In this document: positions 855 through 33,883 of the stretch, piece by piece | Layout: each line of letters begins with the position of its first letter | Position numbering within the stretch: position 1 is the stretch's first letter | Origin: Marinilabilia sp. | GTDB lineage: Bacteria > Bacteroidota > Bacteroidia > Bacteroidales > Marinilabiliaceae | Assembly: GCF_016278715.1 (NCBI RefSeq) | Contig: NZ_JADQBH010000139.1 | Location: forward strand, 1-44,029 | Reading direction: 5' to 3' | Length of the DNA: 44,029 bases | Made by a program: the position numbers and the translations under genes | The notes under the pieces: model-generated | Database searches by the model: none | What the model saw: only the letters and a program-made list of their open reading frames with translations | What the model was told of the DNA's origin: nothing

Positions 855-1967
855 ATGAGAAAAAGTCCATTACATTTTATGGTTGCCATCATTTTAGGAT
901 TAGGCATCGTCAGTTGCAACACTCCCGTTGAGCAGTCCATCCAAAAAGAATCCTGGGGGCAGAGCTCAGATGGCACCGCAGTTGACCTTTACACACTGAC
1001 CAGTAGCACAGACCTGGAGGTAAAGATATCCACATTTGGCGGAGTTATTACCGCCATAAATACACCCGACAAAAACGGGAAAGTAGAAAATGTGGTTCTG
1101 GGATTCGATGATTTATCGCGCTATCTGGAGAAAAGGAGTTTTTTCGGAGCCATCATCGGACGGTATGGAAACCGAATCGACAAAGGCCAGTTTACGCTAA
1201 ACGACAGCACCTATCAGCTATCGCTAAACGATGGTCCCAACCATTTGCATGGCGGTACCAACGGTTTTGACCAGAAAGTTTGGGACGCTACACCCGTTGA
1301 CTCCCCCGAAGGCCCGGCCCTGCAGCTTGAGTATTTCAGTCAGGACGGGGAAGAAGGTTACCCCGGAAATTTAGACGTCACTGTTACTTATCAACTCAAG
1401 GGCGACAGTCTGGTGGTTAAGTATCTGGCCAATACCGACAAAGCAACCCCGATTAACCTGACCAACCACTCGTTTTTCAACCTGGCAGGAGAAGGAACCA
1501 TCCTGGATCACGAACTCACCATTAATGCAGATGCTTATACTCCGGTGGATTCCACACTTATTCCTACGGGAGAAATTAAACCCGTTGAAGGAACACCTTT
1601 CGATTTCACCGAAGTTCATCTTATTGGCGAGCGAATTGAGCAGGTTCCCGGAGGTTATGACCACAATTATGTGCTGAATCAGGACGCAGCAGGTGAAATG
1701 GCTTTCGCATCGAAATTAAAAGATCCCCAATCGGGAAGAACAATGGAAATCTATACCGAAGAACCGGGCTTGCAGTTTTATTCCGGAAATTTCCTGGACG
1801 GATCTCAAAAAACAGGGGATTGGGTATTCGAGCAATACAACGGTCTTTGCCTCGAAACACAACACTTTCCTGATTCGCCGAATCATGAAAACTTCCCGTC
1901 AACCATCTTAAACCCTGATGAAACCTATCAGACTACAACAATTATGGTATTTGGTGTGGAAGAATAA
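855..1967 (+). CDS. galM: Aldose 1-epimerase (mutarotase), lipoprotein
   Basis: A 370-residue aldose 1-epimerase, which interconverts alpha and beta anomers of aldoses such as galactose, glucose, xylose or arabinose. It has a lipoprotein signal peptide ending GIVSC (Cys21), so it should act outside the cytoplasm, anchored to a membrane. Family motifs are clear: GRYGNRI (102-108), NHLHGG (129-134), NLTNHSFFNL with the catalytic-type His205, GLQFYSGNFLDG (305-316) and LETQHFPDSPN with the likely catalytic base Glu334. Length is normal for the family once the signal peptide is removed. It diverges from the Nudix gene and converges on the beta-helix gene, with a strong terminator between. Periplasmic mutarotases often accompany PULs or arabinose/xylose genes in Bacteroidetes. 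The exact sugar is not readable from the sequence. Confidence 0.92.
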   Translation: MRKSPLHFMVAIILGLGIVSCNTPVEQSIQKESWGQSSDGTAVDLYTLTSSTDLEVKISTFGGVITAINTPDKNGKVENVVLGFDDLSRYLEKRSFFGAIIGRYGNRIDKGQFTLNDSTYQLSLNDGPNHLHGGTNGFDQKVWDATPVDSPEGPALQLEYFSQDGEEGYPGNLDVTVTYQLKGDSLVVKYLANTDKATPINLTNHSFFNLAGEGTILDHELTINADAYTPVDSTLIPTGEIKPVEGTPFDFTEVHLIGERIEQVPGGYDHNYVLNQDAAGEMAFASKLKDPQSGRTMEIYTEEPGLQFYSGNFLDGSQKTGDWVFEQYNGLCLETQHFPDSPNHENFPSTILNPDETYQTTTIMVFGVEE

Positions 1968-2275: not shown

Positions 2276-4132
2276 CTAACGGGCACCAATAAAGGAATCC
2301 TGAACATCGGTCCATCCTGCCGCTTCTTTCACCTTTTCCGGAATTTCAGCAGCAACTTTAGAATCCCCAAAAACGGAGACAATCGAAGAATTTCCGGCAG
2401 GCAAGTCTCCCTCATAACCATTATAAAATTTGCTGTTTGCTTCGAAAGTTTCATACAAAGCATTCAAATCAGCAGGATCGGCAATCCGGGCCTGGCATTC
2501 TTCATTATCGGCCGGACTCCACAAGGCCACCAGGGGTTGCTCTTCTTTTTTCACTTTAACATATACATTGTTGTCAATGGCTTTCAGCGTGGACTCACTG
2601 AGTCGCTCACACATTTCGGCGGGTTGCCACACATAAAGCAGGGGCGTTTCCATACCGACCGTATCTATCATCAGATTGTTTACAAATACATGCTCCTCCC
2701 GCTCATCAACGCCGGGGCCACTAGTAACATGCCAGCCAAAATGATCGGCGCCGTCACCACGAGCTGTACGCCCAAAGCTTGCACGGCTGTTAACGAATGT
2801 ATTGTTATAGATCTCGGCACCACGAGCGTTGAGAATCAAGATTCCCTGATTGTTGTTCACAAATTCGTTTCCGGCCACAATAACACCCTCAGAAATTTCA
2901 AAGAAGAAACCACTTCGTCCAACCCAAACTTTATCCCCCGAGGCTGCCTGGTCAACCTGACCAACATTCTCGATACGGTTATTTACAAACACACCATCCA
3001 CATTACCTACATCATACCATATACCATTGGAATTGGGTTGATTGGTCACCAAATTCTCGCGACAAACCACCCGGTGGCTTTGGTTAAATATCTTTACAGC
3101 AGCAGGAAAATACCCTCTCCAATTCTCAATATTGTTGTGTGCAAAAATGTTTCGCTCCAGCAACACATCATCCGACGCAACGATATAAAGCCCTTCGGTA
3201 TTGGTATCTTCAATTTTACAGTTGCGTATTACCATACTGTCGCCATGCGCAAATACACCAACACGCAGTGACTTCGTGAAAGAGCAGTTTTCCAGAACAG
3301 TTCCCACTGCATCGTTACCATGTGCTTCTTCGGGCGAGATTTCCTCAGGAAAAAGGCCATCGATGAGCACGCTGATATCTGCATACTGAGTTACCTCAAG
3401 CCCTTTTATCACCGGACCTCTTTTATCGGTTGTTTTGCCATGTACATCCTCAGGCGTTCTGATAATTGCATTATTGAAGGCAGTTATTTCAACCAACTGG
3501 TCGGTAGGATCGGCACCCAGATAAATTTTCTTTGCTTCGTAATCAACATAAAAAGTTCCTTCATCCAACTCATCTTTGCTACCTGCAGATTGAAGATACT
3601 CTCCATCCACAAACACACAGTCGTTGTTGAACCGATGCATGGGTGTTGATTCGATGTTCCGCTCTTTGTTCCACCATGATTGTGGGAAAGCCGGGAACAG
3701 GCGCTCCCACTCGGTGTACCAGACTCCATCTTCGTCCTTTTGCCAGTTTTCAGCAACCAATGTACCATTCAGTACCGGCTTTTCATCCTGATAGGGTTGA
3801 ATGGTAATTCCCTGATTAAAGGTAAGGTCGCCGGTACGGTAAATCCCACCCCGCATCACAATAGCATCATTGGTCACCACGCGGGCGATGGCAGTCTCAA
3901 TAGTGGTGGGATTCTCAAGAGAAGTTCCATCCGCCTGGTCATCTCCATCCGGAGCAACATAATAAATAGTTCCTGCCACTTCCGGAAGTTCGTAAGTGGT
4001 ATCATAAGGTCCGTAAACGACCTCTTCCTTTTGTTCAGTTTCATCTGCTGGAGGAGGTGTCTGACAGGAAAACAATCCTGCAACAGCCAACACGACAAAA
4101 GAAACCTTCAGTAAAACCTGACTTTTTTTCAT
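2276..4132 (-). CDS. Right-handed beta-helix lipoprotein, possible glycosidase (downstream paralog)
   Basis: A 618-residue protein with lipoprotein signal LAVAGLFSC (Cys23). It starts with GTIYYVAPDGDD (55-66) and IVMRGGIYR (91-99), the usual opening of a DUF1565/NosD-type right-handed beta-helix, followed by many N/G-rich rungs (VIRNCKIEDTNTEGLYI at 301; NNTFVNS at 443). Two acidic residues stand out: Asp374 in GIWYDVG and Glu412 in GFFFEISEG, 38 residues apart. From memory, GH120 beta-xylosidases (also beta-helical) carry their nucleophile Asp and acid/base Glu in similar contexts, about 23 apart. I infer a possible carbohydrate-active enzyme; a lyase or binding protein remains possible. 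It is the last gene of the GH30 / beta-helix / beta-helix unit and is a clear paralog of the gene at 4204-6069, 71 bases upstream. Confidence 0.8.
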   Translation of the reverse strand: MKKSQVLLKVSFVVLAVAGLFSCQTPPPADETEQKEEVVYGPYDTTYELPEVAGTIYYVAPDGDDQADGTSLENPTTIETAIARVVTNDAIVMRGGIYRTGDLTFNQGITIQPYQDEKPVLNGTLVAENWQKDEDGVWYTEWERLFPAFPQSWWNKERNIESTPMHRFNNDCVFVDGEYLQSAGSKDELDEGTFYVDYEAKKIYLGADPTDQLVEITAFNNAIIRTPEDVHGKTTDKRGPVIKGLEVTQYADISVLIDGLFPEEISPEEAHGNDAVGTVLENCSFTKSLRVGVFAHGDSMVIRNCKIEDTNTEGLYIVASDDVLLERNIFAHNNIENWRGYFPAAVKIFNQSHRVVCRENLVTNQPNSNGIWYDVGNVDGVFVNNRIENVGQVDQAASGDKVWVGRSGFFFEISEGVIVAGNEFVNNNQGILILNARGAEIYNNTFVNSRASFGRTARGDGADHFGWHVTSGPGVDEREEHVFVNNLMIDTVGMETPLLYVWQPAEMCERLSESTLKAIDNNVYVKVKKEEQPLVALWSPADNEECQARIADPADLNALYETFEANSKFYNGYEGDLPAGNSSIVSVFGDSKVAAEIPEKVKEAAGWTDVQDSFIGAR

Positions 4133-4151
4133 GAGGTTCTTTTTTATTTTT

Positions 4152-4187
4152 TAAAAGAAAAGGGGAAGCACCCTAAGCAGCTCCCCC
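4152..4187 (-). terminator. Terminator-like hairpin between the two beta-helix genes
   Basis: On the minus strand GGGGAGC (4186-4180) pairs with GCTTCCCC (4169-4162) with a one-base bulge, and is followed by TTTTCTTTTA. It lies in the 71-base gap between the paralogs and could reduce transcription of the second one. No separate promoter for the second gene is evident. Confidence 0.5.
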
Positions 4188-4203
4188 CATTTGTTAAATT
4201 TAA

Positions 4204-6069
4204 CTATTTTGCGCCAACAAAAGAGACATTCTCTTCTGTCCATCCGGCTAGGTGCTTAATGTTTTCGGGGATTGTGGTAGCAACAGAATGTCCTTCAAAA
4301 TCAGATACGGTCTCGATATTCATCGGGTCCTCATCTGTAAACAAAGCACCTTCAAAACCATTATAAAGCTTACTACTCACTTCGAATGACTCGTACAAAG
4401 CATTCAGCTCCTCCGGCGAGGTTATTTTTGCCTGACATTTGTCGTTATCGGCAGGACTCCAAAGCACAATGGTAGCATTCTCTTCCTTCTTGGTCTTTAG
4501 ATACACATTGTTATCAAAAGCTTCAAGTGTAGGTGTATTCAGTCGCTCACACATTTCGGAAGGCTGCCATACATAGAGAAGCGGAAATTCCAGTCCTATG
4601 GTATCCACCAGTAGGTTATTCACAAAAACGTGACCTTCGCGCTCATCAACGCCCGGTCCGGTATTGATGTGCCATCCAAAATGGTCGGCATCGTCACCCC
4701 GGGAATCGCGACCAAAGCTGGCACGACTATTCACAAAAGTATTGTTGTAAACTTTTGCACCACTACTGTTCAGAATCAGCATCCCCTGATTGTTATTCAC
4801 AAATTCATTACCTGCAACAGTCACCCCTTTGGATATCTCAAAGAAGAAACCATTGCTGCTGGGCCACACCTGGTCATTTCGGAATGGGCCTTTGGGACTG
4901 CCCACGTTCTCGACCCGATTGTTTACAAAAACCCCGTCTATATTGCCCACATCGTACCAAAGACCGTTGGAGTTGGGATGATTGGCAATAAGGTTTCCAC
5001 GGCAGACCACGCGGTGCGATTGATTAAAGATCTTCACAGCGGCAGGATAGAAACCGGTCCATTTTTCAATATTGTTGTTTTCAAAAACATTCTGCTCCAG
5101 CAATACGTCATCCGAAGCAACTACATACAAGCCTTCAGTATTTGTATCTGCTATCTTACAATTACGCATTACCATGCTGTCGCCAATGGCAAAAACACCG
5201 ACCCGCAGGCTTTTTGAGAAGGTACAGTTCTCGAAAACCGTTCCCACCACATCGTTACCATTAAGTTCCTCGTTGGAAGCCCCCTGAGGGTAAAAACCAT
5301 CAATATGCACCATTGTATCAGGATATTGGGTAACCGTCAGACCGCGAATCACCGGTCCTACCCCATCGTTTTCTTTGCCGTTGGCATATCCGCTGGTTCT
5401 GAAAATAGCTTTTCTGAAAGCGGTAATCTCAACCAATTTATCAGCAGGATCCTGACCAAGAAAAATCTCTTGGGCATCATAATCCACAAAGAAAGTTCCG
5501 TTGTCCAGTTCATCCTTGCTACCAACTGATTGCAAATATTCTCCATTCACAAATACCATATCATTATTGAATCGATGAAGCGGAGTAAACTCAAGGTTTC
5601 CTTCTGGGCGCCACCACGGTTCGGGTTCTCCGGGGAAAAGACGCTCCCATTTGGTAAACCAGATTCCATCCTCAGTTTGTTGCCATTCGGTTGCTTCAAG
5701 AGTTCCGTTCAAAACAGGTTTCTCATCCTTAAAAGGCTGAATGGTAACCCCCTGATTAAAGGTCAGATTTCCACAACGGTAAGTTCCCCCTCGCATCACC
5801 ACTGCATCTCCGGTAACCACACGTGCAAGAGCCGACTCTATGGAAGTGGGCGACTCAAGAGCCGTTCCTTCGGCTTCGGCATCTCCATCGGGAGCTACAT
5901 AATATATAGTTCCGGCAACTTCGGGTAACTCATAAATTTGTTCTACAGGTCCAAAAACCTTATCGTCGCCTTTAGTATTCTCTGCAGCTTGCGGGGCCTG
6001 ACAAGCTACCACTCCAAGAGCCAGAATAAAGGCAGGGATTAAGCGTAAAAATGGGTGATTCTTTTTCAT
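4204..6069 (-). CDS. Right-handed beta-helix lipoprotein, possible glycosidase (upstream paralog)
   Basis: A 621-residue paralog of the gene at 2276-4132, alike over the whole length. I start it at the ATG at 6069, because this gives a standard lipoprotein signal (FILALGVVAC, Cys23); a longer frame to 6168 adds 33 residues with no signal character. Order: GTIYYVAPDGDA opening (54-65), VVMRGGTYR (90-98), an N/G-rich beta-helix to about residue 490, and a C-terminal tail with WSPADN. The acidic pair seen in the paralog is kept with the same 38-residue spacing: Asp373 in GLWYDVG and Glu411 in GFFFEISKG. The segment between them is the least similar part. It follows the BACON-GH30 gene by 172 bases on the same strand. 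Extracellular carbohydrate processing is inferred; the reaction is unknown. Confidence 0.8.
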   Translation of the reverse strand: MKKNHPFLRLIPAFILALGVVACQAPQAAENTKGDDKVFGPVEQIYELPEVAGTIYYVAPDGDAEAEGTALESPTSIESALARVVTGDAVVMRGGTYRCGNLTFNQGVTIQPFKDEKPVLNGTLEATEWQQTEDGIWFTKWERLFPGEPEPWWRPEGNLEFTPLHRFNNDMVFVNGEYLQSVGSKDELDNGTFFVDYDAQEIFLGQDPADKLVEITAFRKAIFRTSGYANGKENDGVGPVIRGLTVTQYPDTMVHIDGFYPQGASNEELNGNDVVGTVFENCTFSKSLRVGVFAIGDSMVMRNCKIADTNTEGLYVVASDDVLLEQNVFENNNIEKWTGFYPAAVKIFNQSHRVVCRGNLIANHPNSNGLWYDVGNIDGVFVNNRVENVGSPKGPFRNDQVWPSSNGFFFEISKGVTVAGNEFVNNNQGMLILNSSGAKVYNNTFVNSRASFGRDSRGDDADHFGWHINTGPGVDEREGHVFVNNLLVDTIGLEFPLLYVWQPSEMCERLNTPTLEAFDNNVYLKTKKEENATIVLWSPADNDKCQAKITSPEELNALYESFEVSSKLYNGFEGALFTDEDPMNIETVSDFEGHSVATTIPENIKHLAGWTEENVSFVGAK

Positions 6070-6241: not shown

Positions 6242-7870
6242 TTATTGTAACACAATGGTTGTTATGCTCTCTTTGGGTAATTCAACAATTACGTTATCCT
6301 CATTTAAAATATTATCATTGAGATTTCTGTTGAGCCCGGAGGAAGTCGTATAAGATACTGCCGACGTAGCAGAAGATGGTAATTCAACCTCAATCGTCCT
6401 GGCTGAATACTCAGACGGGTTGATAATCACAATCACGGTATTTCCCTCGCCCGAATAAGCAGTCATCTTGAGGGTGGAAACGCCCTCCGGACTGACATCA
6501 ATACGCTGATAACCTGGACGAATAAACTTTGAATATTGCGAAAATGCGTAACCACGCTTCAATATTTTGCCTCGTTGAGTTCCGTTATTGCCGTCACCCA
6601 GGAAACTGTAATATCTGCGGATATACCACCAGATGTAAGCATTCCAGTCAAAAGCCATGGACGAATGAATCCCTTCGAGCATTTCCATGGTTTCGTCCCA
6701 GATGGTTTCCTGGTCGGTGTACTCAGTCCAGTTGGAAGAAACATTACCGCTGTTCAGATTCAGCAGATATTCAGTCATCCAGATTTCTTTTTCCTTCTCA
6801 TGGGCAAGTGGATATGCTGCCAAACCGCCGCCATAGAGGTGTCCGCCAACAATATCAAGATTGTCCACTGCGGTTGCATCATTCAGAATATCACTGGTAT
6901 AGGCCTGGTTAGAATTCAATGATTCCGCAGCCACCACTTTAGCATTTTCAATCACTCCCGCATAGTTTCTTACAAAATCATACATTTCGGCCACACTATA
7001 TTCACATCCTTCATAATCCACTTTCCAATCAGGTTCGTTCTGAATGGAGACGGCATCAATCACAGCCCCTTTATCTGCCATGAACTGAATATACTCATTA
7101 ATATAGTTGGCAAAATCAGAATAATGCTCTTTCAACAAATAACCGCCACCGTTGGTGCTATTATTGCTTTTCCACTCTGAAGGGGGAGACCACGGGCTGG
7201 CCAGCACTTTTGCATTGCGGCTGTTGGCCATTTTCACGGAGTTGACCAATCCGGCCCAGTCATCCCGGTTAGAAGGTAATCTCACCCTGTAGATGGAGAG
7301 CCCCAATTGATCTTCACCGGTTCCAAACGCCATATCCATTTCGCTTTCGGTGAGGTAATCGGTTCCCCAAATCATATTAGCCCCCCCAAAACCTGCAATT
7401 GTTTGATGAACCACTGTAGGATCAAGAGTTAATTTGGTTGTAGTCGGTGCCACCCTCCCGGATTGCTTCAGAACAATCTCCTCCGAAACCTCATCTTTCA
7501 GTGACTTGAGAATAAGCTTCTGCCAGTTTTCAGTGGTCTTACCATTTGCAGCATAAGTTATTTCCACAAAAGAGGAAGTCTCCGCTTCCATTATACTCCC
7601 GCCCTCTGATGGGAGTATGGTCGAGATAAAGGCATCGCCCTTCACCACTTCGGTGGTGATGTCCCATTGAGTAAAAGCCCAGTCAATTTCCAGGGAAAAA
7701 CTTCCTCCTGCGGCATCCAGATTCTCCGGAAAGGAACTTTGTTCAAAAGATAATACAACAGTTTTATCCACCTCTTCCCCATTGTCATCTTCACTGCATG
7801 ATGCAAAAAAAAGGATGGTGGAAAAAAATACGATTAATGAAACAACACAGAGTTTTCTTATGACGAGCAT
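6242..7870 (-). CDS. GH30 family xylanase-like lipoprotein with N-terminal BACON domain
   Basis: A 542-residue protein starting at the ATG at 7870, which follows an AAAGAAGA purine run and gives a lipoprotein signal (ILFFASC, Cys25). Residues about 35-140 form a BACON-like domain ending EIVLKQSGR, a mucin- or glycan-associated spacer typical of Bacteroidetes. The rest is glycoside hydrolase family 30: TIAGFGGAN (substrate-site opening), ASPWSPPSEWK, SIQNEPDW with acid/base Glu279, and EIWMTEY with nucleophile Glu367. The segment WWYIRRYY (around 414-421) and KRGYAFSQYSKFIRPGYQRID closely resemble the GH30_8 glucuronoxylanases, where an Arg in this loop contacts the glucuronic acid side group. 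Endo-xylanase activity is therefore the best guess. It is first in the unit feeding the two beta-helix genes and diverges from the regulator. Confidence 0.88.
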   Translation of the reverse strand: MLVIRKLCVVSLIVFFSTILFFASCSEDDNGEEVDKTVVLSFEQSSFPENLDAAGGSFSLEIDWAFTQWDITTEVVKGDAFISTILPSEGGSIMEAETSSFVEITYAANGKTTENWQKLILKSLKDEVSEEIVLKQSGRVAPTTTKLTLDPTVVHQTIAGFGGANMIWGTDYLTESEMDMAFGTGEDQLGLSIYRVRLPSNRDDWAGLVNSVKMANSRNAKVLASPWSPPSEWKSNNSTNGGGYLLKEHYSDFANYINEYIQFMADKGAVIDAVSIQNEPDWKVDYEGCEYSVAEMYDFVRNYAGVIENAKVVAAESLNSNQAYTSDILNDATAVDNLDIVGGHLYGGGLAAYPLAHEKEKEIWMTEYLLNLNSGNVSSNWTEYTDQETIWDETMEMLEGIHSSMAFDWNAYIWWYIRRYYSFLGDGNNGTQRGKILKRGYAFSQYSKFIRPGYQRIDVSPEGVSTLKMTAYSGEGNTVIVIINPSEYSARTIEVELPSSATSAVSYTTSSGLNRNLNDNILNEDNVIVELPKESITTIVLQ

Positions 7871-8153
7871 ATTCTTCTTTAAATGTGAAAAGGTTGTTGG
7901 GAGGAAAGGATTTTCGACAAAATTTAACTTCTCAAAACTAATCAACTATCTCCTGTTTTATGTGGACTTTTTCGTGTATTAAGGGGATATTTTTCATTCC
8001 TGTCCATTTTTTGAAGCAGCCGCAACAGGTTGAAAACAACAAAAGGATAGCCTGCAAAGCCAGGAGATAAAAGGCTCTCCGTTGGAAATGCCTCAAATAA
8101 TTCTTAATTTTGTCTGTTTAAAGATCCTCTTTGATTGATTTCATAACTACCCC
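7871..8153. promoter_or_regulatory. Divergent promoter region of the GH30/beta-helix unit and the regulator
   Basis: 283 bases separate the divergent starts at 7870 and 8154, so both promoters and any operator for the central regulator should be here. I do not find a full TAnnTTTG element; CCTCTTTG near 8126-8133 is a partial match for the plus-strand gene. Confidence 0.45.
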
Positions 8154-11033
8154 ATGTTAAAGCAGACACGGATTTTTTCATATAATAACATAAAGCACAT
8201 TTTGGGCTTTTTGTTGCTTATTGCTTTTCCCAGCCCCACCATGGGACAAGTAATAGGAAACCCTCCGGTGACTCATTACTCTCATCAGGACTTTAACAGT
8301 GATGGCCAGTTTTGGGATGCCTGTCAGGATACCTCTGGAATTATGTACTTTGGCAACAATTATGGTGTCTTAAGATTCGACGGCGAAAGGTGGAACAAAA
8401 TTTCTCTTCCAAACAACAGTGCGGTTCGAAGTCTGCATTGCTCCGAAAACGGAATCGTTTATGCCGGAGGATACAATGAGTTTGGCATCATAGAGACCAA
8501 TACGAACGGGAGTTTTACATACCAATCCCTGCGCAATATTCTGCCTCCAAAATATTCAGAAATAGGAAATGTCTGGCAAATTTTAGAACTCAACAACACC
8601 ATTATTCTGCGGACCTTTGATTTCCTGATTCTGCTTAACCGAAACAACGTTGAAATTATTGAAGCCTCAGGGACATTCAATTTTGCAGGAATCTCAGGCA
8701 ATGACTTGCTCGTTCTGGACAAGAAAAATCTTTTTTTATTGAATGTCAACACCTCGCAATTCCAGCGTATCATCTCCACTGAAGATATTTTGAATGAAAG
8801 CATACTAAAAATACTTCCGGGGCATGAGAACGAATCATTGTATTTATTAACCAAAGAAGGTTCCCTATTTGAGATATCCCTGAAAAACAAAACCGCCCAT
8901 AGACAGCAGAAACTTATCTCCCTTTCATCAAAACAGGTATTCACCTCAGCCATCCAATCCCTGTCGGGGGAGGTGTATATAGGAACATTAAGCAATAAAC
9001 TCTCCTCCTGGAAATTTCAGGACAACAGACTCATAAAGGTACGATCTTTCGGGGATTTGCAGGATCAGACAGTCCTCAACATTTTTGAATCGCACGAAGG
9101 AATCATTTGGATTTTACTCAACAAAGGACTGGATTTTTTTGACCCTAACGCACATCTGACAAATATCTTTCAGGGCTCGTCCATCTATGACGCTATACTT
9201 TTTAACAACAGACTCTTCATCGCAACAAATCAGGGAGTATTTCATTCAGCAGATATTTATTCTAACAGCGTAATTTATCAAAATGAATTTCAAAAGATAC
9301 CAATGCTTGACGGCCAGACATGGTCGCTAAAGGTTATTGACAACCAACTTTTTTGTGCACACGACCAGGGACTTTTCATGATTAGCAATGGCCAGACAAC
9401 ACAAATTCCAGGTTTTCAGGGAGTCTGGAAGCTATTTCCCGTATCAGGGAAAAGTGATCAATTCTTCATTTGCCACTACAATGGTATTGGTTTGATACAA
9501 ATCAGAAATGGCAACTACTTGGTGTTGTCCAATTCGTTGCCCGGGTTCGATGACTCCACCCGTGATTTAATTGACATTCCGGGAGAAAGTGATTCCTATT
9601 GGGTTTGCCATGGTTACAAAGGCGTTTTTAAAATCAAAACCAACAAGGAAAATTCTCGTGTGGTATCCACTGAGCATTTTAATGAGCAAAACGGACTTCC
9701 TTCTCCATTCAATATTAATGTTCACAGGTGGAACGGACAAAATATTTTCACAACCAATGATGGTTTGTTTATTTTTGACAAGACAAGTGAAACCTTTGTT
9801 CCCCATGAGGCTCTGACTAAACTTCTTGGCTCTGAAAAAAACATTCGTCAGCTTGTTCAACAAGGTGATACGACCTGGTGTGTCATTGACGATCAACTGG
9901 CTTTTTTCGATAAAGCAATGAAGAACGTTATTACCAACCCGTTTCTCTCTCTAAAAGGAACGTTGAACCGTGGCATGGAATGCATTGTGCCATTGAAAAA
10001 CGCCAATGAAGTTTTACTGGGGACAACCAACGGATTGTATGCTTTTCATCCGGAAGCAAAATCTCAATTGCTTTCAGCAAAAGTAAAAACCAGGGTTTCC
10101 CGGATCTCCTATTCCATAAATGATTCCATCACCACATTTGCCATTACAGACACAATGGATTTAATGGAATTTCCCAATAATGTTCACAATATCAGCTTCT
10201 GGTTTTCGGCACCTTATGTCCGCGACAAAGCCAATATCAGATACAGTTATCTTCTGAAGGACCAAATGAAGGAATGGTCAGAATGGCAGGAAGAACCAAT
10301 GGTCAACTTCTCCTTTCTGAAAGGCGGTGATTACCTTTTAAAAGTGAAAGCTCAAAGTTTATCCGGTGAAGTCGCTCAAATTACTCAAATACCATTCACT
10401 ATTGCCCCTGCCTGGTTTGCTACCTGGCCCTGGCTCATATTTTGGGGATTGATAACCACAGGGATGGTTCTTGCCGGAATAAGACAGATTCAGGTAATTA
10501 TTGTAAAGGAGAAAGAAAAGACTCGTGTGGAAGAACAACAACTCCAGGAGGTACGTGACATGGAGCGGGAAAACCAACTGATAATTCAGGAAAAGAAACG
10601 CGTAGAAGCCGACATCATTAAAAAAAGCAAAGATTTAGCCAATAACGCCGTCCTAATTGCTAAAAAAAGGGAACTACTGATTGACATTCAGGAGAGACTC
10701 AACGAATTGAGAAAGAATGCAAAAAATGATTATACCCGAACCGGCATTCTAAACATTGTCCGTAGCATTGAGATCAACCTGAATGATGAACAACAGTATC
10801 TACTTTTTGACACCAATCTGGAACGGGTTCATCAGGAACTGTTTGACGAATTAAAATCAAGACATCCTAACATCACGACCAAAGACCTAAGGATGTGTGC
10901 TTTCATAAAAATGGAACTCACCAACAAAGAAATGGCGAGCATTTTTAATATTTCTGTGCGTGGAGTGGAAACAGCCCGGTACCGTCTGAGGAAAAAATTT
11001 CCTGATATCTATGAACTTATTGGTCAGGTCTGA
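8154..11033 (+). CDS. Membrane-tethered regulator: beta-propeller, Y_Y_Y domain, LuxR-type HTH
   Basis: A 959-residue protein with an N-terminal signal (GFLLLIAFPSPTMGQ). Next comes a long Reg_prop-type beta-propeller (roughly 40-650), with repeats such as IMYFGNNYGVLRFDG and EVLLGTTNGLYAF. A Y_Y_Y domain follows (about 675-748), then one membrane helix near 755-778 (WPWLIFWGLITTGMVLAGI), a Glu/Lys/Arg-rich coiled coil (about 782-850), and a C-terminal helix-turn-helix (about 915-950: LTNKEMASIFNISVRGVETARYRLRKKF). Unlike the hybrid two-component systems of Bacteroides PULs, there is no histidine kinase or receiver. The periplasmic propeller probably senses a glycan fragment and passes the signal through the helix and coiled coil to a DNA-binding domain held at the inner membrane. 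It sits between the two PUL units and is their likely regulator. Confidence 0.88.
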   Translation: MLKQTRIFSYNNIKHILGFLLLIAFPSPTMGQVIGNPPVTHYSHQDFNSDGQFWDACQDTSGIMYFGNNYGVLRFDGERWNKISLPNNSAVRSLHCSENGIVYAGGYNEFGIIETNTNGSFTYQSLRNILPPKYSEIGNVWQILELNNTIILRTFDFLILLNRNNVEIIEASGTFNFAGISGNDLLVLDKKNLFLLNVNTSQFQRIISTEDILNESILKILPGHENESLYLLTKEGSLFEISLKNKTAHRQQKLISLSSKQVFTSAIQSLSGEVYIGTLSNKLSSWKFQDNRLIKVRSFGDLQDQTVLNIFESHEGIIWILLNKGLDFFDPNAHLTNIFQGSSIYDAILFNNRLFIATNQGVFHSADIYSNSVIYQNEFQKIPMLDGQTWSLKVIDNQLFCAHDQGLFMISNGQTTQIPGFQGVWKLFPVSGKSDQFFICHYNGIGLIQIRNGNYLVLSNSLPGFDDSTRDLIDIPGESDSYWVCHGYKGVFKIKTNKENSRVVSTEHFNEQNGLPSPFNINVHRWNGQNIFTTNDGLFIFDKTSETFVPHEALTKLLGSEKNIRQLVQQGDTTWCVIDDQLAFFDKAMKNVITNPFLSLKGTLNRGMECIVPLKNANEVLLGTTNGLYAFHPEAKSQLLSAKVKTRVSRISYSINDSITTFAITDTMDLMEFPNNVHNISFWFSAPYVRDKANIRYSYLLKDQMKEWSEWQEEPMVNFSFLKGGDYLLKVKAQSLSGEVAQITQIPFTIAPAWFATWPWLIFWGLITTGMVLAGIRQIQVIIVKEKEKTRVEEQQLQEVRDMERENQLIIQEKKRVEADIIKKSKDLANNAVLIAKKRELLIDIQERLNELRKNAKNDYTRTGILNIVRSIEINLNDEQQYLLFDTNLERVHQELFDELKSRHPNITTKDLRMCAFIKMELTNKEMASIFNISVRGVETARYRLRKKFPDIYELIGQV

Positions 11034-11142: not shown

Positions 11143-12465
11143 TTACTCTTGAATTACTGACAATACAGCCGCATTTATGCCTCCTGTTATATCGACTCTA
11201 AAAGTATATTTATTTCCTTCAATCAAAGGTTCCTCATTTACAAGCCCAAGGTTTCCGGGGTCGCGGCCATTTTCACCGTTTCCTACAAAAACAATATTAC
11301 TGTCGGAACTAAGGGCTTCATTGGTATATTCTCCCCCCCAACCTTTTTGGTGGAAAAATTTGAAGTTGATGTAACCCGCATCTATTGACTCGCCGGCCAC
11401 AACAGTAACCTCATAAACCATAGGGGACACCTGGGCCATGCACAAAGCTTTATCGGTGTTCCAACCCACCTGATTGTCAAGAGAAGGTTTTCCGATACCA
11501 TCACCGATAATCCACAAAGCACCACTGCCATCCTGCTGAAGTGTTGCCAGATCATTTCCATTCATTGCTTCCACCACAAAATACTCATGAATAAAATTGG
11601 CGATCACTCTGTATTTCCCTCCGATAGCTTTAAACGTAAGGGTCCCATCTCCGTTATCCACAAAGTAGTTCTCATCAATCCACCACTCATCAAGGTTCGC
11701 AATGCCATCGATTTCAATTATCTGCTCCTGATCAAGATCGGCTTCCACTTTAAAATTGTCATCGTTAACCATCACCATTGATTCTCCTGCAAACTCAAGA
11801 GAAATAAAAGGACCCGCAGCATAGGTAAGCGTATTAAAGATAATCTCATACTCTCCTGCAACATAGCTGGAGAATGTGATCTCCGCATCAGTCCCTTCTT
11901 TTATTTCGCCGGAGGCCCAGCCAAAAGTCATTTCGTTTCCGGCATCGGTAATTGTTGGGGTTTGGATATAGCCTTTTACCTTTTGAGGGAAAGAAGCAGT
12001 AACAGCATACCTGTACTCATCCACTTTTTCCATTTTATAATCGCCATCAGCTGTCACCAGCGTTATCCATGGATAGTCAGGACGACTCAGGGCGATTTCA
12101 AAACTTTGTTCCTCGATGGCAAATTCGATATTTTGAAGAACAAATTTCAATCGTCCTGTCCCATTGGGAATGTCTTTATAAAAAGGCACGTATATCTTTC
12201 CGGAGTATTCACCATTGGTTTTTGTCCGAATAACGGTCTCCTCTACCATTTCATCACCAAAAAACAATTGTGCTTTAAGGGTTGACAAAGGCACTTCATC
12301 ATCAGCCACCATAGTGGTAAAAGAAATACTGTCACCAAAATGGGCGGCGGTGATGTTGTTTTCCACTATCAGTTGGGGATCGCCGACAACAGTCTCCTCA
12401 TCTTCGCAGGCAATAAAACCCACTAAAGCAAACAAAACACTGAAGAATAAAATATTTCGCTTCAT
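11143..12465 (-). CDS. SusE-like surface glycan-binding lipoprotein
   Basis: A 440-residue lipoprotein (FALVGFIACEDEE, Cys20; the acidic residues after Cys resemble the surface-export signal of Bacteroidetes lipoproteins). The N-terminal part looks like an Ig-like SusE domain. Later parts have SusE/SusF-like beta-sandwich character with aromatic segments such as DEWWIDENYF, ALWIIGDGIG and FKFFHQKGWGGEY that could line glycan sites. Similar proteins with DUF5125/DUF5121-type domains occupy this position in some Bacteroides PULs. It is the last gene of the SusC-SusD-GH30-SusE operon, 18 bases after the GH30 stop, and is followed by a strong terminator. It should bind the polysaccharide at the cell surface and help deliver oligosaccharides to the SusC/SusD pair. 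Ligand identity cannot be read from the sequence. Confidence 0.82.
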   Translation of the reverse strand: MKRNILFFSVLFALVGFIACEDEETVVGDPQLIVENNITAAHFGDSISFTTMVADDEVPLSTLKAQLFFGDEMVEETVIRTKTNGEYSGKIYVPFYKDIPNGTGRLKFVLQNIEFAIEEQSFEIALSRPDYPWITLVTADGDYKMEKVDEYRYAVTASFPQKVKGYIQTPTITDAGNEMTFGWASGEIKEGTDAEITFSSYVAGEYEIIFNTLTYAAGPFISLEFAGESMVMVNDDNFKVEADLDQEQIIEIDGIANLDEWWIDENYFVDNGDGTLTFKAIGGKYRVIANFIHEYFVVEAMNGNDLATLQQDGSGALWIIGDGIGKPSLDNQVGWNTDKALCMAQVSPMVYEVTVVAGESIDAGYINFKFFHQKGWGGEYTNEALSSDSNIVFVGNGENGRDPGNLGLVNEEPLIEGNKYTFRVDITGGINAAVLSVIQE

Positions 12466-12483
12466 AATAATTTAGATTTAGTT

Positions 12484-14139
12484 TTACTTATTCCAGCGGT
12501 AAGAAACCACTGCATTGGATGGAACCGGATAAGAAAAATGATTTGAGCCGTCACTAATGGTGATTGTTTTGGTATCATTAGTGTCATTCATCAAAACCAA
12601 GGCAAAAGAACCATCTGTATTTTCAAATGCACTGTAAATGATGCCATCGGTTGAATAACCGCTGGTTCCAATCCGCACCGCACCAGGTTTTACCACCGAT
12701 GACAGATGACCAATAATGTAATAATGTGAATTTCGAACAATTGTTTTATAATTATCATTGCTGATATCCACCGCTCCATAACAAGTTTCACACCCTCCGG
12801 AACGATTAGGTCCGCGATTTGAGTCAAGCATCAGGTTCCACACGATTACAGCTTTGCTCCAGTTATTCACTGTGCCAAAGGCCACTTGCTCCATATCGTC
12901 CATCAACCGTTTGGAAAGATTCTGACCATCGTTCCAGGTTCCGATGGAAGTCTCGGTAAAAATCAGTTCCTTTTCGGGAGCTTTCTGATGAATATCCTCC
13001 AGTTCGCTGAAATGACCGCCATAATTGTGATAGGCAGCCCCAGCAATATACCGGCTGGCTTCATCGTCCGCATAAATATTCACAGGATAATCCTCCTGCT
13101 CACTCATATTATCGTAATTGTAATTGTGGTCGAAAACATACAATTTGACCTCCAAACCAGCCTCTTCAAGTGCCGGCCCCAACTCTTTGACAAATTCCAA
13201 TTGCTCGTCCCAGCCCATAAACAAAGATGCAGAGTTACCGCGATTCAATGGCTCATTTTGAGGGGTTATCGCATCAATTGAAATCCCAAATCCGGCGAAT
13301 GCCTGAATCCATTTCACAAAATAAGTGGCATAATCTTCATAATATGCAGGATTAAGATGACCACTTGTCCAGGAATTGAATGGCTGAAGATCGGTAAGAT
13401 TATTAACTTTCATCCACCGCGGAGGCGTCCAGGGAGACCCCAGAATTTTAAGATCAGGATTGATTGCCAGAATCTCCTTCAGAATAGGAATCACGTAATC
13501 TAATTCCTCCGACTGAAGACTGAAATTCTCGATCCCGGGAGTGTCACAACAGGTGTACTCACTCAAAGAAAAGTCGGAACATCCAATAGCAATACGTACA
13601 TAACTGTATCCCATCCCCTCTTCATGCGAAAAGGTCTGCTTCAGGAATTCTTCTCTGTCAGCAGGTTCCATCTGCATCAGGTTAAAACACGAAGAACCGG
13701 TGATTGCCGCTCCAAAACCATTCATTTTCTGATATTTCACTGACGGAACGAGCGTTATGGTCGTTGGTGACATATTGGAGGTCTCACTAAAATCAACAGC
13801 GCCTCTCTGAAAATCATAAGCCCGGTTGCCGGTGGTGGTGAAAATTGTGACATCTCCACCCACTACTTCAGGCTTTTCCTGATCATCCGGCTTATTCACC
13901 TCATCATTTTCCTTGGAGCAGGAGCCGCACGACATAAACATGAGGCTAAAAAAAGTCACATAGAATATTTTATTTAGTCTTTGAAAGAAAACACCAACTA
14001 CTGCGTTGTTCTCGTTTTTAAAACAGTCATTTACAAAAGGTAAACTCCTTGGTTTCAAAAACTTCAAAAGCCTTGTATTTGGCGCTTTCTTATCAAAGAC
14101 TTTAAATTCCTTAGTTTTCTTACTGGCACTATTTATCAT
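12484..14139 (-). CDS. GH30 family glycoside hydrolase, lipoprotein (beta-glucanase type)
   Basis: A 551-residue reading with GH30 motifs: KMNGFGAAITGSS (139-150), SPWTPPRWMK (235-244), ITPQNEPLNRG with acid/base Glu296 and LIFTETSIGTW with nucleophile Glu396. The pattern is that of GBA/GH30_3-type enzymes, which include beta-1,6-glucanases; subfamily and substrate are uncertain. The lipobox LMFMSC puts the lipidated Cys at residue 71, which is far from the ATG used here: about 50 residues precede the signal helix. No in-frame ATG lies between, so translation may start at an internal non-ATG codon (TTG codons occur near residues 25-27), or the gene has a real N-terminal extension. It lies between SusD (77-base gap) and SusE in the operon, the order known from a Bacteroides beta-1,6-glucan PUL. 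Confidence 0.88.
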   Translation of the reverse strand: MINSASKKTKEFKVFDKKAPNTRLLKFLKPRSLPFVNDCFKNENNAVVGVFFQRLNKIFYVTFFSLMFMSCGSCSKENDEVNKPDDQEKPEVVGGDVTIFTTTGNRAYDFQRGAVDFSETSNMSPTTITLVPSVKYQKMNGFGAAITGSSCFNLMQMEPADREEFLKQTFSHEEGMGYSYVRIAIGCSDFSLSEYTCCDTPGIENFSLQSEELDYVIPILKEILAINPDLKILGSPWTPPRWMKVNNLTDLQPFNSWTSGHLNPAYYEDYATYFVKWIQAFAGFGISIDAITPQNEPLNRGNSASLFMGWDEQLEFVKELGPALEEAGLEVKLYVFDHNYNYDNMSEQEDYPVNIYADDEASRYIAGAAYHNYGGHFSELEDIHQKAPEKELIFTETSIGTWNDGQNLSKRLMDDMEQVAFGTVNNWSKAVIVWNLMLDSNRGPNRSGGCETCYGAVDISNDNYKTIVRNSHYYIIGHLSSVVKPGAVRIGTSGYSTDGIIYSAFENTDGSFALVLMNDTNDTKTITISDGSNHFSYPVPSNAVVSYRWNK

Positions 14140-14216
14140 CTCTCTTTGGTTTTGTTCAAAACTTAATCAAACACCCCCGAGTTAATGTGCAATCCGGGAC
14201 AGGTGTATAAGGATTT

Positions 14217-15740
14217 TTAATAGCCCGGATTCTGCTCAAGGTTAGTGTTGACATCCAACACTGTCTGTGGAATGGGTAACAGTTCAGAATCCTCAGTAAA
14301 AGGACGGGCCTGAGATAACCTTCCATTATCCCGGGTATTGATTCCATTCATAACAGACTGAAGTTTATCATTTCTGATTAAATCGAATAAACGATTTCCT
14401 TCAAATGCGAGTTCCAGACGGCGCTCTCTCAACACAGCCTCTTTCATTTGCTCTGCAGAGGATTTAACAGATTCAGACAATCCTGGCAAGTCAACCCTTG
14501 CTCTGATTTTGTCAACAATGGATGCAGCTTCTCCCAGCTGCCCTTGCGCTACGAGCGCCTCGGCTTTCAGTAATAGAATATCGGCCAAACGTAATTTGAT
14601 GATGCTATTGTTGCCAGACCGCATTTTATACATAAACGGATAATGGTCTGAAGGATAATAAAGGCTCCATCCGGGCTCATAATAAACAACAGATTGGTTA
14701 AATCTAATCTCGTCCCCCTCTGTTTCAAAGGCAGCAATCAGGTCGCGCGAAGGAGTTACCCACTTTGCCCAGGAGAAGTTCTCATCCCAATTGAGCAAGT
14801 TGCGACCAAACATCCAGTTAACCCAGTTTCCGCTTCCGGTAAAAAACTGAACTTCAAAAATCGACTCAGTGGTATTTCTTGCTGCAATATCAGTTCCGGC
14901 TTCATTCATTCTAAAAAGCAGGGAGTAATCGTCCACAAGAGAAAAATTATCATTGATAACATCATCACAATATTCAATAACCTTACCATAATCTCTAATT
15001 GGTTTCTCAGCATAAGCCTTTGCCAAAAGGGCCCTGGCCACTGCTTTCGACAAAACAGTTTTTTCATTGCCGGTCTCCGGAGCATCAGGAATAGCAGTGG
15101 TAAGATCCTCCACAATTTGCTGATAAGCTTCTTCGGGTGTATTCTGAGAAGGGAAGTAGGCAGGATAAACCTCTTCAATATTATCAGCAGTAATATCCTC
15201 CGCCTCTGTGGTGATCACAGGAATATTTCCCCAAAAACGAACCATATCAAGCATTACCATAGCCCTGAAAATTTTAGCTTCCGCTTTCCACTGAGCTCTT
15301 TCGCTATCTGAAAATGAAGCATCCGGAACCAGATCAATATTTTCAATAATAGAGTTTACATGAGCAATATCGTCAAGATAGCTGTTCCAGTCACGTGTAA
15401 TTACGCTGTTTCCGCCATCCAGTGAATTATCTTCCACAGGCATCACCTCTGCCCCTGTGGTTCCACCATAAGCATTATCGGCGCGGGCTTCGGTCAGCAA
15501 CAGATAATCCAGATACCAATGTTCCTGACGTCCGCGAAACAATTCATACATCGCATCGTACTGAGTCAACATTTCACTCCGGTTTTCAAACTTTATGCGA
15601 TCACCCGACTCATCCGAGGAACCCATTGTAATCTCTGAAAAATCAGAAATCGGGTCTTTATCCAGTGAACAGGAGGCTGCGATGAAAATCATCAGCAATC
15701 CAAACCCTTTTTTTACTATATCAAGTTTCATAATTGTCAT
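14217..15740 (-). CDS. SusD/RagB-like outer-membrane lipoprotein
   Basis: A 507-residue SusD-family protein that caps the SusC-like transporter and binds glycan at the surface. It has lipoprotein signal LMIFIAASC (Cys24) followed by SLDKDP. The helical TPR-like core is visible, and C-terminal family signatures are strong: LRLADILLLKAEAL, RARVDLPGL, LRERRLELAFEGNRLFDLIR, and the final segment LLPIPQTVLDVN. The ATG at 15740 is 3 bases after the SusC stop codon; a second ATG at 15731 would also give a good signal peptide. The two genes are thus translationally close, as is usual for SusCD pairs. The GH30 gene follows after 77 bases. Confidence 0.95.
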   Translation of the reverse strand: MTIMKLDIVKKGFGLLMIFIAASCSLDKDPISDFSEITMGSSDESGDRIKFENRSEMLTQYDAMYELFRGRQEHWYLDYLLLTEARADNAYGGTTGAEVMPVEDNSLDGGNSVITRDWNSYLDDIAHVNSIIENIDLVPDASFSDSERAQWKAEAKIFRAMVMLDMVRFWGNIPVITTEAEDITADNIEEVYPAYFPSQNTPEEAYQQIVEDLTTAIPDAPETGNEKTVLSKAVARALLAKAYAEKPIRDYGKVIEYCDDVINDNFSLVDDYSLLFRMNEAGTDIAARNTTESIFEVQFFTGSGNWVNWMFGRNLLNWDENFSWAKWVTPSRDLIAAFETEGDEIRFNQSVVYYEPGWSLYYPSDHYPFMYKMRSGNNSIIKLRLADILLLKAEALVAQGQLGEAASIVDKIRARVDLPGLSESVKSSAEQMKEAVLRERRLELAFEGNRLFDLIRNDKLQSVMNGINTRDNGRLSQARPFTEDSELLPIPQTVLDVNTNLEQNPGY

Positions 15741-15743
15741 TAA

Positions 15744-28243: not shown

Positions 28244-29305
28244 ATGAAAAAACTTTTTCTATTCCTGCCTTCCCTTATTCTGCTTGCTTGTCAGCCGACA
28301 CAAACCCCCTCCGGACTCAAAGAGAATGCCTCATTCCCTGTGGGAACAGCCATCCGGGCTCATCAAATAATCAACGACAGCGCAATGCAAGCCATTGTAG
28401 CAAAAGATTTTAACAGCATCACCCTGGAAAACAGCATGAAAATGTATGCTGTTCATCAGTCAGAAAGTGATTACACCTGGGACCACGTGGATGATGTGGT
28501 AGATTATGCACAACAAAATCAACTCCGCCTGCATGGCCACGCCTTCATCTGGCACTCGGGGACGCCCCGCTGGATAAACGAAATGGCTCCTGACAGTGCT
28601 AAGCTTGATCAAATCATGGAAGAGTACATCCTTACTTACGGCAGTCGTTACAAAGGAAAAGTTGCCGGATGGGATGTGGTTAATGAGGCACTTTTGGACA
28701 GCACCGGAACATACAGAGAATCTATCTGGTACGAAACCATGGGCGAAGGCTATATTGCCCGTGCATTTGAACTGGCTCATCAGGCCGATCCAGAAGCAGT
28801 CCTGTTTTACAATGATTTCAATATTGAGCGGGACACCGTAAAACTGCATGCTATGCTGCGAATGGTGGATAAACTCAAAGCTCAGGATGTACCCATCTCA
28901 GGAATTGGTTTCCAAATGCACATCAGGATGGATACCGACGAAGAAACCGTGGAATATGCACTAAAAAAAGCTGCTGAAACCGGTTTGCAAATCCATCTTT
29001 CGGAAATTGACATCATCTTTAACAAACATGACGATACCCCCGGTGGCGGAATACAGATTTACGACGAACTAACCGAAGAAATGCTCCAGGCCCAGGCCGA
29101 AAAATACCAATGGCTTGCTGAAGCATACATTCGAAATGTACCGGCAGAGCAGCGTTATGGAATGACTGTATGGGGTTTCAGCGACAAACATTCCTGGATT
29201 CCTTCGTTCTTTAATCTGAATGACTGGCCATGCCTCTTCGACGAAAACATGGACCCCAAACCGGCTTATCACGGTTATATGAAGGGATTGGGTAATTCCA
29301 AATAA
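28244..29305 (+). CDS. GH10 endo-1,4-beta-xylanase, lipoprotein
   Basis: A 353-residue glycoside hydrolase family 10 enzyme, cutting beta-1,4-xylan with retention. Lipoprotein signal SLILLACQ (Cys16). GH10 landmarks in order: FNSITLENSMKMY (56-68), LRLHGHAFIWHSGTPRWI (95-111), AGWDVVNEALLD with acid/base Glu148, VLFYNDFNIE (186-195), ISGIGFQMHI (218-227), and IHLSEIDI with nucleophile Glu254, then MTVWGFSDKHSWIP. Length is that of a single catalytic domain without a binding module. It should act at the cell surface or in the periplasm. It lies about 9 kb from the PUL in its own transcription unit, ending in a terminator at 29324. It supports a xylan-related diet for the organism. Confidence 0.95.
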   Translation: MKKLFLFLPSLILLACQPTQTPSGLKENASFPVGTAIRAHQIINDSAMQAIVAKDFNSITLENSMKMYAVHQSESDYTWDHVDDVVDYAQQNQLRLHGHAFIWHSGTPRWINEMAPDSAKLDQIMEEYILTYGSRYKGKVAGWDVVNEALLDSTGTYRESIWYETMGEGYIARAFELAHQADPEAVLFYNDFNIERDTVKLHAMLRMVDKLKAQDVPISGIGFQMHIRMDTDEETVEYALKKAAETGLQIHLSEIDIIFNKHDDTPGGGIQIYDELTEEMLQAQAEKYQWLAEAYIRNVPAEQRYGMTVWGFSDKHSWIPSFFNLNDWPCLFDENMDPKPAYHGYMKGLGNSK

Positions 29306-33527: not shown

Positions 33528-33532
33528 GATGT

Positions 33533-33883
33533 TTATTTTAAAAATGGATAATTCATAGAGTATTCGGCAATATGAAATGAAATACAAACCACTCTGTTGT
33601 TTTCATTTCCCATACTTACTTTGATATACACTTCTTTCTTTTTTACTTGCTTACCAAAAACCCACATAGGCAATATGCCATGCATTTTTTCGTCTAAAGG
33701 GCCTTGCGAATAATCTTCTGCTTTTAACGAACTTATAATTTCTTTACGTTTGGCAGGTGAAATTTCTAAATCGTGAAGCGTTTGTTGATTCTTGCCACGA
33801 TCATCAAAAAACAGTATTCCGAAAATATCCATTTTCACCTTTAGTTCCTTTAAGTATGTTTCAACTTCTTGTTTTGATGCCAT
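33533..33883 (-). CDS. MqsR-like toxin (RelE-fold putative mRNA endonuclease)
   Basis: A 116-residue protein, first gene of a two-gene unit with the antitoxin. The centre and C-terminus align by eye with MqsR: ISSLKAEDYSQGPL resembles the GLSESDFYKSM segment, LPMWVFGKQVKKKEVYIKVSM resembles the WQDVYRPRLVTGQVYLKITV segment, and CISFHIAE the C-terminal VSFKEK strand. Tyr86 corresponds to the MqsR active-site Tyr; the final catalytic Lys is replaced by His104. MqsR cuts mRNA, mainly at GCU, but the specificity here is unknown. The toxin-first order matches mqsRA. A promoter with TATCTTTA and TTG spaced by 21 lies just upstream (33903-33935). The family assignment is moderate; other RelE-fold groups are possible. 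Confidence 0.7.
   Translation of the reverse strand: MASKQEVETYLKELKVKMDIFGILFFDDRGKNQQTLHDLEISPAKRKEIISSLKAEDYSQGPLDEKMHGILPMWVFGKQVKKKEVYIKVSMGNENNRVVCISFHIAEYSMNYPFLK

Follow-up and report, generated by a model that had tools for sequence, protein, structure and literature searches.

Described members of glycoside hydrolase family GH120 are beta-xylosidases that act in exo mode where tested (PMC8954004 among the sources), and according to PMC8954004 the Asp and Glu mutants of three such enzymes are inactive, with the two acids lying 23, 33 and 37 residues apart. In TsXylC the two acids are Asp382 (nucleophile) and Glu405 (acid/base), and the GH120 spacing of about 23 residues that the original prediction had given is correct for this enzyme. 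Here, a tandem pair of genes encoding the beta-helix proteins P0001 and P0002 is compared with these enzymes. The pair lies in a stretch of 44,029 nucleotides from Marinilabilia sp. (contig NZ_JADQBH010000139.1), which as a whole is referred to as the window.

Tandem beta-helix genes and their acid pair

The two genes and the codons of their predicted catalytic residues are given below; L141 belongs to the GH120 set used here and matches TsXylC at an E-value of 8.5e-160.

2276..4132, minus strand: P0001, beta-helix lipoprotein of 618 amino acids, GH120-like (ORF call)
3011..3013, minus strand: codon of Asp374 of P0001, predicted nucleophile, matched to TsXylC Asp382 via L141
2897..2899, minus strand: codon of Glu412 of P0001, predicted acid/base, matched to TsXylC Glu405 via L141
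4204..6069, minus strand: P0002, beta-helix lipoprotein of 621 amino acids from the ATG at 6069, GH120-like paralogue
4951..4953, minus strand: codon of Asp373 of P0002, predicted nucleophile, in the same alignment column as Asp374
4837..4839, minus strand: codon of Glu411 of P0002, predicted acid/base, in the same alignment column as Glu412

The two products are 66% identical, and both genes open with a lipoprotein-type signal (the P0002 lipobox was found by pattern, the LFSCQ of P0001 by eye); the proteins are probably exported, a cellular location predicted from sequence. Pfam and NCBIfam give both just beta-helix or NosD matches, the generic annotation that had been expected of such proteins. 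The proposed acid pair was likewise found as described, with Asp374 and Asp373 in GIWYDVG and GLWYDVG, Glu412 and Glu411 in GFFFEIS, and 38 residues between the acids in both P0001 and P0002. The further claim that the paralogs differ most between these motifs holds within the mature core, where identity is 35% (20-column windows) at 387-411 versus 69% over residues 45-600, but it does not hold for the whole proteins, of which the signal peptide and C-terminal residues 576-593 diverge more.

In one scan, 258 stretches encoding relatives of P0001 and P0002 were found. These relatives, retrieved with two peptide patterns, occur in records labelled Bacteroidota, Ignavibacteriota, Balneolota, Calditrichota, KSB1, Fidelibacterota, and Planctomycetota. 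Because the Asp motif lies inside one of the patterns and the Glu motif inside neither, the count for Glu412 is less biased than that for Asp374. None of the 95 family rows (93 distinct) lacks either acid, and the pair therefore exceeds chance. The family alignment varies in the loop that connects the catalytic rungs, and the spacing from Asp to Glu ranges from 23 to 39 residues. A search of open-licence PMC articles found no paper on this family, for which a formal CAZy family number may already exist.

Structural match to GH120

The comparison of predicted structures with a GH120 crystal structure, which the original prediction had proposed, came out in its favor. The models (pLDDT 79 for P0001 and 91.7 for P0002) have TsXylC (3VST) as their top Foldseek match, with E-values of 6e-14 for P0001 and 5e-18 for P0002, and 5MQP ranks second with either model at about 2e-10; together with the Pfam Beta_helix match, this places the right-handed beta-helix core of GH120 in both proteins. 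VIA-align superposed 465 residues of P0001 and 475 residues of P0002 on 3VST at 3.2 A, versus at most 366 and 361, respectively, on the other listed entries. The VIA Z score shows no preference for 3VST, with AlgE epimerases at 28.7 versus 24.4 for P0001 and at 25.9 versus 25.6, a tie, for P0002. In the P0002 model, strands 368-373 and 406-411 each end in one of the two acids and are read, on this model, as the same strand on successive rungs. A putative insert with predicted borders, the candidate counterpart of the beta-sandwich domain that interrupts the helix in GH120, includes Trp130, Trp138, Trp153, Pro209, Glu215, and Arg225, which pair with GH120 in hhalign.

Profile comparison with GH120

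Alignment of 13 family members with five GH120-type proteins in hhalign gave a probability of 98 over 407-409 columns at default settings. In four of four settings, Asp374 fell on TsXylC Asp382 and Glu412 on Glu405, with Lys347, Trp372, and His468 matched too, and columns conserved on both sides held the same residue in 35 of 51 cases. The likeness to GH120 active sites first noticed in the motifs is thus carried to the level of residue equivalence, Asp374 corresponding to the nucleophile of GH120 and Glu412 to its acid/base, at 15-22% identity in the alignments. It should be noted that hhalign E-values alone were rejected as proof of kinship with GH120: PL9-like controls reached 2e-13 (over the N-terminus only) and a set made up of L151, L153, and L014 reached 4e-10. 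Because controls also attain such values, the argument for kinship is built on how far the alignment extends and on the catalytic residues that it matches.

Full-length similarity to GH120 was not found in pairwise comparison: the phmmer match of P0001 with 3VST spans residues 57-142 alone (E 1e-4), and the match with two GH120 proteins of the same phylum is confined to residues 33-220. The match of P0001 to the TsXylC N-terminus was dropped as GH120 evidence; the beta-helix proteins L014 and L017 match likewise. When a 95-row profile was compared with four GH120 sequences, the local alignment ended short of the catalytic rungs, an E-value of 0.11 was obtained for the catalytic half alone, and a loosened alignment matched the Asp and left the Glu unmatched. 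Compared with the GH120-type protein L145 alone, the same profile matched both acids (E 2.5e-4), the Glu in three of three settings. A counterpart of TsXylC Glu353, which is invariant in the GH120 set used (five of five plus TsXylC), was not found in the 95 rows, of which 74 have Tyr and 21 have Phe at the equivalent position 342. Because of this replacement, and because full-length similarity was not found, P0001 and P0002 are called GH120-like rather than members of GH120, and their sequences point to a putative new family or deep subfamily. The spacing of 38 versus 23 residues is read as a variable loop, seen also among characterised GH120 enzymes, and is no objection to this kinship.

Proposed function

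P0001 and P0002 probably represent an overlooked branch of glycosidases. We estimate a probability of roughly 0.6 that they are retaining exo-glycosidases, most likely beta-xylosidases, distantly related to GH120; catalysis, retention, exo action, and xylose specificity are predictions, whereas computation shows the family and its fold match, the conservation and equivalence of the residues, and the xylan context. A point against the xylosidase reading is that the genome already has 23 GH43 matches and could do without a further xylosidase. As exported, membrane-anchored glycoside hydrolases, the two proteins would use the right-handed beta-helix and its inserted domain to set two acids on successive rungs. 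Asp374/373 would carry out nucleophilic attack on the anomeric carbon, while Glu412/411 would first protonate the leaving oxygen and next activate water, and the sugar would therefore be released with retained configuration. The loop joining the two rungs changes fast; it probably sets substrate choice and would distinguish the paralogs.

The same GH120-like retaining design could instead serve another xylan-related task, such as that of an endo-xylanase or xylobiohydrolase or the removal of side-chain sugars, which we consider possible but a good deal less probable. The catalytic pair is the same, yet Tyr or Phe stands in all 95 rows for the Glu353 that TsXylC has on the rung before the nucleophile; the inter-rung loop is variable, GH141 includes a beta-helix endo-xylanase according to PMC5593877, and GH43 genes also occur near 7 of 79 loci. 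Exo action on xylosides is favored, on the other hand, by the activities of the described GH120 enzymes noted at the outset and by Trp153, the match of TsXylC Trp113, which all 95 rows keep.

Genes around the pair and the xylan context

The genes of the window that bear on the substrate of these predicted beta-xylosidases are as follows.

855..1967, plus strand: aldose 1-epimerase (PF01263, E 4e-93), convergent neighbor
6242..7945, minus strand: GH30_8-like glucuronoxylanase that has an additional N-terminal part and leads the presumed operon
8154..11033, plus strand: regulator-like protein (Reg_prop above cut-off, Y_Y_Y just below, weak C-terminal response-regulator match)
28244..29305, plus strand: GH10 xylanase (PF00331, E 2.3e-98), elsewhere in the window

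In phmmer, the product of 6242..7945 matches 1nof at 1e-74 and XynC 3gtn at 6e-64; it keeps the IRR-x-Y segment and scores 271 bits against the NCBIfam XynC model, under the cut-off of 650. Homology and neighbor counts thus confirm the gene type and the xylan setting behind the earlier remark that the pair follows a GH30_8-like xylanase. Genes for GH10, GH30_8-like, or GH115 enzymes were found near 25 of 79 relatives versus none of 20 control stretches. References for GH43 and acetylesterase-like genes, each of which matched one of 20 controls, were left out of this count, and the L038 GH30 reference was used without its T9SS-type N-terminal part, which picks up unrelated genes. At the sensitivity used, 54 of the 79 loci have none of the three gene types. 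When the 25 shorter contigs are set aside, one of these types is present in 18 of the 54 loci that span 12 kb or more. Reference-free clustering of neighbors in 85 loci gave CBM6/T9SS-tailed proteins (20), GH30 (16), and GH10 (10) as its top groups. In two of four Marinilabilia-type loci, the GH30_8 partner is either missing or reduced to a remnant. The protein encoded at 8154..11033 is a candidate regulator of the GH30 and beta-helix genes, and its homologue lies near the pair in loci L043, L044, and L046, in which an aldose 1-epimerase homologue is also present.

It is unlikely that P0001 and P0002 are beta-glucosidases acting on beta-1,6-glucan or its branch as part of the adjacent SusC/SusD and GH30_3 locus. 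An endo-1,6-beta-glucanase (851.9 bits versus a curated cut-off of 700) and SusC/SusD do adjoin, and GH30_3 stays near in L043, L044, and L046. However, the two gene sets are kept apart by the regulator-like gene at 8154-11033, which is transcribed divergently from the beta-helix genes; the partner is a glucuronoxylanase-type GH30; and GH30_3 occurs near 4 of 79 family loci, far fewer than the 25 with a xylan-related neighbor.

Other beta-helix families

A GH141-type enzyme (alpha-L-fucosidase, xylanase, or fucanase) is a very improbable identity for the pair. The second-best Foldseek entry, 5MQP, is the GH141 enzyme BT1002, and in two of three alignment settings Asp374 pairs with Asp518 of L148, the presumed site of BT1002 Asp564; the third (global) setting shows a register slip, with Asp374 on a Thr and Glu412 on a Glu beside the Asp564 site. 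Against this, the GH141 Asp523 site (Asp482 of L148) pairs with position 342, where an Asp523-type acid was not found in any of the 95 rows, Glu412 pairs with a His of GH141, and Foldseek prefers 3VST over the GH141 entry by about four and about eight orders of magnitude. A direct alignment of GH120 with GH141 extended over 109 columns and left the catalytic Asp outside, and a GH141 motif search among the sampled loci found none. Just as improbable are a lyase, a C5-epimerase, or a non-catalytic binding protein with the common fold and structural acids, since AlgE, PL6, and PL9 structures, although superposing at comparable or higher Z, cover 323-359 residues of P0002 versus 475 for 3VST (fold compared only), and the acids plus Lys347, Trp372, and His468 fit the GH120 pattern; the lyase, epimerase, and NosD-type matches were set aside as generic fold matches.

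Evolutionary reading and comparison with known systems

We give about even odds to a joint reading in which the predicted glycosidases form a family sister to GH120 that acts on glucuronoxylan fragments with a preference of its own, within a GH120/GH141 clan whose acid has moved. GH120, GH141, and the present family would make up a single clan with three acid sites, in which the nucleophile rung is shared and bears Asp in all three. The rung before the nucleophile would carry Asp523 in GH141, Glu353 in TsXylC, and Tyr or Phe in the present family, and the rung after it Glu405 in TsXylC, Glu412 in P0001, and His in GH141; during evolution, the second catalytic acid would thus have switched sides of the nucleophile. 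If P0001 and P0002 are retaining glycosidases, they would add a family for xylan breakdown in Bacteroidota and neighboring phyla, name two residues for mutation, and join GH120 and GH141 as one beta-helix lineage with a relocated second catalytic acid. The tandem paralogs, with identical catalytic residues and a diverged intervening loop, are a natural pair for the study of specificity.

Among beta-helix glycosidases, the GH136 lacto-N-biosidases and GH110 alpha-galactosidases are later Foldseek matches (E 1e-7 or worse). GH141, with the alpha-L-fucosidase BT1002 (5MQP) and the xylanase Xyn141E, has the beta-helix in common with P0001 and P0002 and an Asp564 site that resembles Asp374, but it lacks an acidic counterpart to Glu412, and its Asp523 corresponds to Tyr/Phe342 in their family. 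The GH120 enzymes TsXylC (3VST, 3VSU, 3VSV), Bp-XylX-1, Bp-XylX-2, and Lr-XylC combine a beta-helix with an inserted domain, the latter predicted here, and P0001 and P0002 resemble them in the nucleophile Asp, the acid/base Glu, the surrounding Lys, Trp, and His, the variable Asp-Glu loop, and the xylan or xylose gene setting. They differ from GH120 in their low identity to it, in lacking a full-length pairwise match, and in the Tyr or Phe that replaces Glu353. Moreover, whereas PMC8954004 models its GH120 enzymes as cytoplasmic, P0001 and P0002 are probably exported and are encoded beside xylanases.

Gene pair and predicted fold

The tandem beta-helix lipoproteins P0002 and P0001 are encoded behind a GH30 gene:

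7945..6242, minus strand: GH30 gene, preceding the beta-helix pair
6069..4204, minus strand: P0002, 621 aa, 3' of the GH30 gene
4132..2276, minus strand: P0001, 618 aa, 3' of P0002

The GH30 stop codon lies 172 bases from the P0002 ATG and 71 bases separate P0002 from P0001; because these gaps are short, the three genes likely form one operon. The paralogs are 69% identical over residues 45-600, and identity drops to 35% between the two motifs (387-411), the minimum within residues 45-570. The original prediction had placed a conserved pair at Asp374/Glu412 of P0001 and Asp373/Glu411 of P0002, and these positions are correct.

Structure models were obtained for P0001 (13 sequences; pLDDT 79) and P0002 (63 sequences; pLDDT 91.7, pTM 0.89). 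Among 350,542 PDB chains, the top Foldseek match of both was the GH120 beta-xylosidase TsXylC (PDB 3VST; 6e-14 for P0001, 5e-18 for P0002), followed by the GH141 alpha-L-fucosidase BT1002 (PDB 5MQP; about 2e-10). VIA-align superposed 465 (P0001) and 475 (P0002) residues on TsXylC at 3.2 A, with no other listed entry exceeding 366 and 361, respectively; by Z-score, the shorter AlgE structures ranked above TsXylC for P0001 and tied with it for P0002. In the P0002 model, strand 368-373 ends at Asp373 and strand 406-411 at Glu411, and we interpret these modeled segments as equivalent strands in consecutive rungs.

Conservation of the family

Across 395 genomes searched within the phylum, long, strong matches occurred in 12, counting the genome that encodes P0001 and P0002. 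A scan of GTDB genomes found relatives encoded in 258 stretches, and the best 80 of these, representing 79 loci, were retrieved. Together with the 13 members of an initial alignment, 82 of the 83 frames in these loci (one shorter than 500 aa was left out) gave 95 rows, 93 of them distinct. Asp374 and Glu412 are each kept in all 95; the Glu count is the stronger, because neither scan pattern includes the Glu motif while one includes the Asp motif. The acids are 38 residues apart in 86 rows and otherwise 23 (2 rows), 24 (3), 36 (2), 37 (1), or 39 (1) apart. The members with a spacing of 23, as in TsXylC, lack the inter-motif loop (L040:2881-4764 and L041:15176-17026). In a quick tree of the 93 rows, the tandem duplication falls within Marinilabiliaceae. 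A QPSGG-type signal starts 60 of the 95 rows and a lipobox pattern matched 14; the 21 rows matching neither include P0001, whose signal, like that of several close relatives, reads LFSCQ by eye.

Genomic context

The window GH30 is closest to 1nof, which we take to be the Erwinia GH30_8, and to glucuronoxylanase XynC, and it retains the WWYIRR-x-Y segment, a motif involved in glucuronic acid recognition. Among Marinilabilia-type loci, a GH30_8-like gene ahead of the pair is intact in L043 (strain MSL42; a long copy, 81% identical) and L045 and was not found in L046; in L044 (M. salmonicolor JCM 21150), a 31-residue match to the GH30_8-like C-terminus just before the pair (7554-7646) is probably a remnant. 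A divergent regulator-like gene stands between the window GH30 and the following locus:

11143-18728, minus strand: SusC, SusD, GH30_3 endo-1,6-beta-glucanase, DUF5016/DUF5125/DUF5121 protein

This is probably a beta-1,6-glucan utilization locus, presumably resembling BT3310-3313 of B. thetaiotaomicron. Elsewhere in the window, a protein at 32520-33587 has MqsA-like and SocA/Panacea antitoxin domain matches.

With trimmed reference proteins, a GH10, GH30_8-like, or GH115 gene was matched in 25 of the 79 loci; when only the 54 loci spanning 12 kb or more are counted, the number is 18. The first set, of 11 loci, gave 6, but at least three of these 11 duplicate loci of the 79 (identical rows), and L035/L081, whose contigs are equally long, is perhaps a fourth. 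None of the three was matched in 20 control stretches (345 kb in total) from genomes carrying the family, where GH43 and the acetylesterase-like reference were each matched once. Reference-free clustering of all neighbors within 8 kb at 85 loci gave, as largest groups, CBM6/T9SS-tailed proteins (20 loci), GH30 (16), and GH10 (10), mostly on the same strand; at least one protein of the GH30 group (in L083) matched a GH30_3 reference. One locus (L032) combines GH115, an FGGY sugar kinase, and an acetylesterase-like protein, and another (L038) GH43 and two GH10. The genome carrying L038 (G259) encodes that family member in a GH43/GH10/GH30/GH10 cluster and, elsewhere, a canonical GH120 (L144).

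The genome of P0001 and P0002 very probably supports xylan use, because it encodes GH10 in six frames, 23 GH43 matches, one GH67, and one xylose isomerase; given this complement, it has candidate xylosidases besides the pair. Two GH120 queries found no match in this genome.

Relation to GH120 and GH141

GH120 proteins of the phylum were located with a piece of TsXylC as query; L141 matched TsXylC at E 8.5e-160, with nucleophile Asp382 within GLWLDW and acid/base Glu405 within DVFVEV. When the 13-row alignment was compared with five GH120-type proteins, Asp374 matched Asp382 and Glu412 matched Glu405 in all four hhalign settings, as did Lys347, Trp372, and His468; 35 of the 51 columns conserved in both sets carry the identical residue, and Trp153 pairs with TsXylC Trp113. 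Evidence against this equivalence is that the 95-row profile, compared with four GH120 sequences, aligned in the N-terminal part only; its catalytic half alone gave E 0.11, and a loosened alignment of that half matched Asp and left Glu unmatched, global mode failing. Against GH120-type L145 alone, the profile matched both acids in all three settings (local E 2.5e-4). The 38-residue spacing does not set the family apart, because passages of PMC8954004 describe inactive Ala mutants at 371/408 of Bp-XylX-1, 386/409 of Bp-XylX-2, and 382/415 of Lr-XylC, spacings of 37, 23, and 33. A long beta-helix protein (L017:1339-3945; GLWFD...NLFIEW, acids 24 apart) aligned with both catalytic acids over 402 columns in one comparison and in one of three settings in another; it may be another GH120-like branch.

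For GH141, passages of PMC12786026 and PMC5593877 state that BT1002 requires Asp523 and Asp564. When L148 is aligned with 5MQP, we assign these residues to chain positions offset by plus five, which fits both. Of three hhalign settings, two pair Asp374 with the Asp564 site, Glu412 with a His, and the Asp523 site (Asp482 of L148) with P0001 position 342, whereas the third, run globally, lost the register. TsXylC Glu353 also falls on position 342, which is Tyr in 74 of the 95 rows and Phe in 21.

P0001 and P0002 are very probably glycoside hydrolases working like GH120, and beta-xylosidase is the most likely activity given kinship and context. Assigning them to GH120 itself would overreach, because full-length pairwise similarity falls short and Glu353 is replaced. 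From the alignments and the residues at site 342, the family shares the Asp/Glu pair of GH120 but differs at the site of Glu353, and it differs from GH141 in lacking, at that same site, the partner acid Asp523.
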